Shown piece after piece: positions 38,807 through 41,470 of a stretch of DNA of 54,503 nucleotides. The DNA is from Candidatus Bathyarchaeota archaeon. Lineage in GTDB: Archaea; Thermoproteota; Bathyarchaeia; Bathyarchaeales; DTEX01. The notes under the pieces are model-generated. The model made no database searches. It saw only the letters and a list, made by a program, of their open reading frames with translations, and was not told where the DNA came from. Position 1 is the stretch's first letter. Each line of letters begins with the position of its first letter. The position numbers were made by a program, and so were the translations under genes. The DNA lies in NCBI GenBank assembly GCA_018396655.1, contig JAGTQF010000006.1:1-54503 (forward strand), written 5' to 3'.

Positions 38807-38854
38807 AAATCAAACAATTTAAATAGCCTGGAAAATTTTATAGAGGATTGAAGA

Positions 38855-39008
38855 GCCGGGGTCTCCTAGAGCCAACAAATAAACTGGCGGGGAATCCGGT
38901 AGGGAGCAGATTACAACAAGTAAACATAAGCTTAAGCCTGGAGCCAAAAACAGCCAAACAGCCTGTGGCCCACTCTGGGCCGCGTGGGTTCAAATCCCAC
39001 CCCCGGCG
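38855..39008 (+). tRNA. tRNA-Ser(GGA), class II, three introns (about 38870-38894, 38910-38935, 38944-38959); mature about 87 nt, CCA encoded
   Basis: Acceptor GCCGGGG/CCCCGGC, variable arm GGCCCA/TGGGCC, T arm GTGGGTTCAAATCCCAC, G73; after intron removal the anticodon arm is CAGGC CTGGAGA GCCTG. Confidence 0.88.
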
Positions 39009-39099
39009 CCAATTTATATACTCTAGATGAAAAATGATATCTAGTTGGGAGTTAGTTGATATAACTGCTTAAGAAGGGGACTGTAGGGGAAATGCATAT

Positions 39100-39659
39100 T
39101 GGATTGTTATCGCTGATAATCTTAGCAAGGTGTAGAGGTCGGTCAGACTAAGGTTATAGCCTTAAAGAACATAAATCTAAAAATTGAGAAAGGGGAGTAT
39201 GTGGCAATTCTCGGCCTAAGTGGCTCCGGCAAATCTACGCTTATCTACTTAATATTATCGGTGGATTAGATAAGCCAACCTCGGGCAGAATATGTGTGGA
39301 TGGCATAGACTTAGGAAGATTAAGCGAGGAGAAACTATCTCGCTTTAGAGCGGAGAAAATAGGCTTTATTTTTCAGTTCTTCAATCTAATACTGACTAAT
39401 ACTGACATTTACGGCTCTTGAGAACGTTATGGTTCCGGCCGAGATAATAGGCTTAGAAACTAAAAGAGGCTAGGAGAAAGGCTGAGATGCTCTTGACAAG
39501 GGTTGGTTTAAAGGATAGGCTTAACTATATTCCAAGCAACTTATCAGGAGGAGAGCAGCAGCGTGTGGTAATAGTGAGAGCCCTGATTAATAATCCACTA
39601 TTACTCTTATGTGATGAGCCTACGGGTAATTTAGTCTCAAATTTATTCTCTAAGTTTTA
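39100..39659 (+). pseudogene. Decayed MacB/LolD-type ABC ATPase
   Basis: Walker [44 protein letters not shown] in different frames; several frameshifts. Confidence 0.88.
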
Positions 39660-39660
39660 A

Positions 39661-39815
39661 GCAGCATAACGCCCTTTACAATACCCCTCTACTACTCAAC
39701 TAGTATTTTATTTAACTCAGCACTCTTTATTTTGTTAATAATTCTGCCAAGCGGTTTCGTTTTGGGAGGATATATAGTGAGCTTCAGTCCAGCCTCAGCC
39801 CTAAGATGCGAGTAA
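39661..39815 (+). pseudogene. C-terminal remnant of an FtsX/MacB-type permease
   Basis: Frame ...LFILLIILPSGFVLGGYIVSFSPASALRCE*, resembling permease C-termini ending in PVVALRYE. Confidence 0.45.
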
Positions 39816-39859
39816 GTTAGTAAGAGAATTTCTAAAGTGCCTTAACCGTAAAATTTTCC

Positions 39860-40801
39860 TCATCTCAGAATTGCCTCTCTAATGGCTCTGTGGCTTTCCA
39901 TTATCGGAGCAACCGTATTTACAATATAGATTTCTTCTACTGAGCGGAAGAGCTCTCCGAAGAATTTTCTCCTAATATCTGTTTTGCGTCTGTCTTTAAC
40001 AAGTAAATGCGGGTTGCAAAAGTCAGCGGATTCCACGTATCTTAATGCCTCATCTGGTGAGATATTATTAATTATTGATTTGTCTTCTGGATCACGTTTA
40101 AGCAGTATAGCCTTCTTCAGCGTTGTCATTGGCAGAACCCTTCCTTTCCCCACGATCCATCTTATGTTTACGACAGCTCTATTCATGGAGTCAAACTCTG
40201 CCTTATCTACAAGCCTTTGATATTCGCCCCAAACATTGGCTATGTCCGCCTGGATATAGAAGTTCTTCTCTGAGGCGAATGCCACGGCTCTATTGCCCAT
40301 TAGGCGAACAAAGAACCAGTCGTCTGATACAACCCTTATACCTTCAAGTCTCAGAAGCCCATATGTATGTGTAGTCTTGCCGGTTCCGGAGGGCGCGATT
40401 AGGCATATGCCATGCCCATCCATGTCCACGCATGCGCCGTGAACAGAGTTTATACCATGCTCATCCTCAAGTATATCACCCGCGATGCTTAGGGCTATGG
40501 ATTTAATCCAGCCATAATAGTCTACATTAATTAGGAAAGCTGTTTTGGAAAGCGGGTCGTAGAGAAACTTCTGTCCCCCACCATCCTCGTTTGTAACAAT
40601 CAGTCTTCCATGGGAGCGGATGCTCGCCGACATGGAGTAGAAGCTCTCTTCCCAGCGCTCCTTCACATATCTTATATCCGTTAGGAGCTTAATGCAGCAC
40701 CCATATATGTCAGCCCTCTCCTCATAAAGAAAGCGGTCACTATATCTCTCCATTAAGGCATCCTTCTCCTCAATAGAAATAAGTTTAATCTCGTACTTCA
40801 A
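39860..40801 (-). CDS. HPr kinase/PEPCK-like P-loop protein
   Basis: CLIAPSGTGKTTHTYGLL followed by VVSDDWFFV. Confidence 0.6.
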   Translation of the reverse strand: MKYEIKLISIEEKDALMERYSDRFLYEERADIYGCCIKLLTDIRYVKERWEESFYSMSASIRSHGRLIVTNEDGGGQKFLYDPLSKTAFLINVDYYGWIKSIALSIAGDILEDEHGINSVHGACVDMDGHGICLIAPSGTGKTTHTYGLLRLEGIRVVSDDWFFVRLMGNRAVAFASEKNFYIQADIANVWGEYQRLVDKAEFDSMNRAVVNIRWIVGKGRVLPMTTLKKAILLKRDPEDKSIINNISPDEALRYVESADFCNPHLLVKDRRKTDIRRKFFGELFRSVEEIYIVNTVAPIMESHRAIREAILR

Positions 40802-41010: not shown

Positions 41011-41397
41011 TTTTTCGATAGCCTAGCCCTCCCCTCATAAAGATGCTAGCTATGCTCCATCTTTAGGGAGACTCCTCTATAGGCGCTTAGATGCATATTA
41101 CCGCATAAGAATATTCTGTTTAGTCTACAGTTGAGAGGAAAAGCCCCTAATCAGGGAATCAAATATTAGGGGAAAGGTGCCCAAGCCGGTATATGAGTTC
41201 ATAGCCGTTAAAAGCGAAGTTAATGAGCTACTGAAGAAGATTTCCGGGGAGATAGGTTTAGAACATCCAATCAACCACTCGAGACAATCTTAAGGTGCAA
41301 GGTTTCTGGCCCAAGGGTTAACCCCAACAACAAATTTCTGCCCTCCAAACAAGCCCCATTTTTAGGTTGCTTTTCTAAAAAGCAGCATTTTTCTTGG

Positions 41398-41470
41398 AGC
41401 CCCGGGCGGGATTTGAACCCGCGACCCGCGGCTTACAAGGCCGCTGCTCTAACCGCTAAGCCACCGGGGC
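41398..41470 (-). tRNA. tRNA-Thr(TGT), intronless, CCA encoded
   Basis: Acceptor GCCCCGG/CCGGGGC, anticodon arm GCGGC CTTGTAA GCCGC, T-loop GGTTCAAATCC. Confidence 0.95.

Follow-up and report, generated by a model that had tools for sequence, protein, structure and literature searches.

Transfer RNAs interrupted by more than one intron have been described in several archaeal lineages. In Thermoproteales, tRNAs can carry up to three introns (PMC8450103; PMC4090602), and the tRNA-Pro(UGG) of Pyrobaculum islandicum is interrupted at the canonical site as well as at 25/26 and 56/57 (PMC4090602). Multi-intron tRNAs also occur in Thaumarchaeota (PMC8450103) and in Candidatus Caldiarchaeum subterraneum, namely, those for Leu(UAA), Glu (CUG as printed), and Thr(GGU) (PMC3293823). 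In the Asgard lineages Atabeyarchaeia and Freyarchaeia, over half of the tRNA genes have multiple introns, often at noncanonical positions (PMC11291895). Our search of non-subscription literature found no description of tRNA introns in Bathyarchaeota or Bathyarchaeia, and such an absence is not proof. In this work, we found a tRNA-Ser(GGA) gene with three introns in the window, i.e., the whole 54,503-nt stretch of Candidatus Bathyarchaeota DNA that was analyzed. It is almost certain that this gene is functional, that it belongs to a Bathyarchaeia genome, and that its three introns are of the bulge-helix-bulge (BHB) type.

The gene is located at 38855-39008 (+), and an encoded CCA (39009-39011, +) extends it to 39011. 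By sequence reading, the acceptor stem is GCCGGGG/CCCCGGC, the T arm is GTGGG-TTCAAAT-CCCAC, and the variable arm is long. Exon 1 (38855-38869, +) contains the 5′ strands of the acceptor and D stems up to position 15, and is followed by intron 1 (38870-38894, +; 25 nt) at 15/16. Exon 2 (38895-38909, +) contains the D loop, the 3′ strand of the D stem, and positions 26-29, and precedes intron 2 (38910-38935, +; 26 nt) at 29/30. Exon 3 (GCCTGGAG; 38936-38943, +) covers positions 30-37 with the anticodon GGA at 34-36, and intron 3 (38944-38959, +; 16 nt) lies at the canonical 37/38. Exon 4 (38960-39008, +) covers positions 38-73, including the long variable arm, the T arm, the 3′ acceptor strand, and the discriminator G. 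Splicing out the three inserts gives a D stem of four pairs (TCCT/GGGA) and an anticodon arm of CAGGC-CTGGAGA-GCCTG with the anticodon GGA. A putative TATA-like element, TTTAAATA, can be read approximately 30 nt upstream of the gene (38818-38825, +), and a similar AT box is present in the relatives L010-L013.

The gene lies directly 3′ of cbf5, and tRNA-Ser(GGA) occupies the same place in more than 25 relatives. These relatives were fetched with the C-terminal part of Cbf5 as bait and belong to the window's genus or to wider groups up to its order, supplemented with named genomes. A reference mature tRNA was assembled from L036 (D arm and anticodon stem), which lacks inserts at 15/16 and 29/30, and L021 (anticodon loop), which lacks one at 37/38; the window sequence was not used. 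In the alignment to this intron-minus reference, the three inserts of the window gene measure 25, 26, and 16 nt and fall exactly at the proposed points, and sliding by even one base is impossible at any of the three junctions. Intron 1 is absent from L036, L145, L201, L202, L203, and L206, with the joined junction seen in L036, L145, and L202. Joined junctions are likewise seen in relatives that lack intron 2 (L022, L027, L028, L029, and L036) or intron 3 (L021 and L023). A preliminary description of this DNA had proposed a three-intron tRNA-Ser(GGA) with inserts of about 25, 26, and 16 nt after position 15, at 29/30, and at 37/38, and an 87-nt class II product with a perfect CAGGC/GCCTG stem. 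The alignment returned the same inserts, sequence reading confirmed the product and the stem, and the proposed anatomy is correct to the base, with every tested detail supported.

The BHB criterion that we applied is a 4-bp core helix between two 3-nt bulges, with the cut after the second bulge base. Intron 2 has an outer helix TAGG/CCTG, a complete core GAGC/GCTT (4/4), bulges AG^A and AA^G, and an inner helix TTA/TAA. Intron 1 has a complete core TCCT/GGGG (4/4), bulges AG^A and AA^T, and an inner helix of 4 bp (GCCA/TGGC); the outer helix is the sole element missing. For intron 3, the anticodon stem serves as the outer helix, the core CTGG/CCAA has three of four pairs with a C-A mismatch, and the inner helix has one pair. 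The good motif of intron 2 had been predicted as found here in its outer helix, core, and bulges, and the expectation that introns 1 and 3 need relaxed motifs also held. Across genes, the mean core pairing is 3.96/4 for intron 1 (shuffled: 2.06, sd 0.16; inner helix 3.6 vs. 0.33; 28 genes), 3.72/4 for intron 2 (shuffled: 1.20; inner 2.9 vs. 0.44; 25 genes), and 3.04/4 for intron 3 (shuffled: 1.62; inner 1.0 vs. 0.30; 28 genes), with standard deviations of the shuffled introns near 0.16, and these figures overstate independence because the sequences compared are related. Conservation of the BHB pairs in introns 1 and 2 far exceeds that in shuffled introns; in intron 3, it is above chance, with a relaxed motif. 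The inner helix of intron 1 varies by family (GCC/GGC, GCG/CGC, GCAAC/GTTGC, or ACAGGCAGTT/GACTGCCTGT) and is ATCCTT/AAGGAT in G094, a genome of another order; this helix covaries, since different complementary sequences are substituted in different families. RNAfold, run on the full unmodified precursor at 37 C, gives a probability of about 0.9 for the core of the intron 2 motif (BHB2) and none for the D stem. On intron 1, it favors a register shifted by one base (TCTCC/GGGGA with a 4-nt bulge), and the core of the intron 3 motif (BHB3) is not predicted. Because it shifts the intron 1 motif (BHB1), lacks BHB3, and misfolds even the mature tRNA, RNAfold was left out as junction evidence.

ARAGORN misses this gene with or without the intron option, and the only tRNA that it calls in the window is a tRNA-Thr at 41395-41470. 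With intron options on, lowering its threshold yielded nothing but false folds. The Rfam tRNA model RF00005 also misses the gene and matches the T arm alone; a tmRNA model matches at the locus as well. A covariance model of the spliced class II tRNA-Ser (R1), made from 14 rows that include the window sequence, finds 38855-39008 with 58.8 bits and an E-value of 5.5e-9. A covariance-model survey of the class did not separate serine isoacceptors from leucine tRNAs, and a pattern search took its place. Genomes annotated by ordinary tRNA finders will seem to be devoid of tRNA-Ser(GGA). Separately, tRNA-Ser(GCT) was not found in the window's genome by pattern or model, which may reflect a missing contig or further disruption.

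The failure of ARAGORN and RF00005 would also be expected from a decaying tRNA pseudogene with inserts that are never removed, and one relative does have a degraded additional copy: L256 (G001:C30:400-1200), in which the 5′ end of a second three-intron tRNA-Ser(GGA) is damaged, is likely a recent pseudogene. However, the spliced exons of the window gene and of two congeners (L010 and L013) are identical over 90/90 nt, CCA included, while their introns have only 57-92% identity and lengths of 25/26/16, 25/26/15, and 17/25/21 nt, which places the gene far from chance. Exon identity among the cbf5-linked orthologs is 88-100%, and the stems are kept by compensatory change: among 14 mature sequences, the 26 pairs of the cloverleaf have 97.2% of cells paired, 29 cells carry a change on both sides, ten of the pairs show such double changes, and 0/500 shuffles score as high. 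Moreover, covariance-model and RF00005 searches found no second tRNA-Ser(GGA) that could replace this one in the window's genome, which is an incomplete assembly of 48 contigs. We therefore regard decay of the window gene as extremely unlikely.

The relaxed motifs of introns 1 and 3 might favor a gene that has just one or two introns or is spliced at other junctions, but the relatives without each intron define its junction and none of the junctions slides, so that such an arrangement has a negligible probability. The incompleteness of the assembly could similarly be taken to indicate an assembly or binning artifact, or a contaminating contig from Thermoproteales. Yet the gene, its introns, and its cbf5 neighbor recur in many independently assembled Bathyarchaeota genomes, and the Cbf5 tree groups the window with its own genus, apart from the Thermoproteales rows. 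An artifact of this kind is hardly conceivable. The nearest named genomes are all Candidatus Bathyarchaeota (JZ_bin_14, SKW196, and JZ_bin_36.2), with Cbf5 being 91% identical to that of JZ_bin_14, and the host is not a member of Thermoproteales by either the closest genomes or the Cbf5 tree.

A functional three-intron gene being the preferred reading, its distribution can be considered. A pattern for the 15/16 intron arm, tuned to the exon sequence of the window, matched 44/257 genomes of the window's class, 0/323 genomes from the phylum's other classes, and nothing in a reversed control. The preliminary description had viewed the multiple introns as taxonomically informative through Thermoproteales; given this pattern and the Bathyarchaeota identity of the closest named genomes, that was the wrong direction. 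Most genes read from families f1, f6, and f7 have all three introns, as does one gene of f5. Two further genes of f5 carry introns 1 and 2; introns 1 and 3 are found in f2 and f4, introns 2 and 3 in G056, and intron 3 alone in the f8 genomes read, G042, and G004. Intronless relatives exist outside the class. The Cbf5 tree, made with a quick method and having many open forks, requires at least five state changes each for introns 1 and 2 and at least two for intron 3, with gain and loss not distinguishable. The simplest story would be an early three-intron state followed by repeated losses. Introns 1 and 2 are dispensable, since the congener G004 has neither; its D arm (GGCCGAGTGGATTAAGGCGC) differs from that of the window gene and is identical to the D arm of tRNA-Ser(TGA) in the window's genome, which suggests that its introns may have been lost through recombination with the sister tRNA. 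The same 15/16 intron architecture is found in the tRNA-Ser(GCT) genes of G090 (L251) and G094 (L252), which belong to another order of the class, and that of G090 also has a 29/30 intron; serine isoacceptors share these introns, through either common ancestry or transfer. Bathyarchaeia, a group outside Thermoproteales, have three-intron tRNAs as an inherited trait.

Two EndA-family proteins are encoded in the window's genome. EndA alpha matches catalytic subunits (9.6e-44 to 3p1z_B, with the S. tokodaii subunit also close), keeps the Tyr, His, and Lys, and aligns through the N-terminal loop stretch of 3p1z_B with KP conserved; the second copy is devoid of the active-site His. The structure chains matched are the catalytic subunits of Aeropyrum pernix (3p1z_B) and Sulfolobus tokodaii. 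As judged from these residues, the gene pair has the makeup of a putative crenarchaeal-type (alpha-beta)2 enzyme, with one catalytic Tyr/His/Lys subunit and one noncatalytic subunit. Published work describes cleavage of relaxed motifs by (alpha-beta)2 enzymes that carry the crenarchaeal loop (PMC6379350). From homology and published knowledge, the (alpha-beta)2 EndA would cut the precursor, and the archaeal tRNA ligase RtcB would join the exons. BHB1 takes the 5′ strand of the D stem and BHB2 the 3′ strand; BHB2 occupies positions 20-27 and 31-34, the latter as its outer helix, and BHB3 occupies the anticodon stem and a core at 32-35. BHB1 and BHB2 could form simultaneously. As read from the sequence, BHB3 overlaps BHB2 and its outer helix spans the 29/30 junction, so that removal of intron 2 should precede that of intron 3. 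The D stem would be able to form only once introns 1 and 2 are removed. It is a tentative and rather doubtful idea that maturation follows an obligatory order, in which introns 1 and 2 part the D-stem strands and BHB2 blocks BHB3, and that selection kept this arrangement across a Bathyarchaeia order. The natural series of three-, two-, and one-intron genes provides a ready test of splicing order and tRNA intron loss.

The adjoining cbf5 gene has an mRNA intron with a 9-bp inner helix, a GGGA/TCCC outer helix, and one core mismatch, and this intron is present in nearly all close Bathyarchaeota relatives read. Its ends are similar to those of tRNA intron 1 (AG^AGCC...GGAA^); a common origin was considered, and BHB constraints can account for the shared letters. 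On the other side of the tRNA gene, an ABC transporter ATPase reading frame (39100-39860, +) seems to be frameshifted, with the break after the Walker A region, and seems to be a pseudogene or an assembly error. Many other tRNA genes of the window's genome appear interrupted (L121, L132, L133, L137, L140, L141, L142, L217, L218, L219, L220, and L223); L223 has an insert near position 8-9, and the genes for Val(TAC), Lys, and Arg(TCG) appear to carry two or more introns.

The Bathyarchaeia gene resembles those of Thermoproteales, in which a single tRNA can hold as many as three short BHB introns, at canonical and noncanonical positions and with relaxed motifs. It differs in the tRNA, the class, and the position set (15/16, 29/30, and 37/38), and in that this set recurs across Bathyarchaeia families with repeated state changes. 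Atabeyarchaeia and Freyarchaeia share with it multi-intron tRNAs, noncanonical positions, and environmental genomes, but are of a different lineage. Caldiarchaeum is likewise an uncultured archaeon with multi-intron tRNAs and some introns in the D arm, although its named multi-intron genes do not include Ser(GGA). With such tRNAs already known from Thermoproteales, Caldiarchaeum, Thaumarchaeota, and Asgard archaea, the Bathyarchaeia gene is a further example of a known archaeal type.
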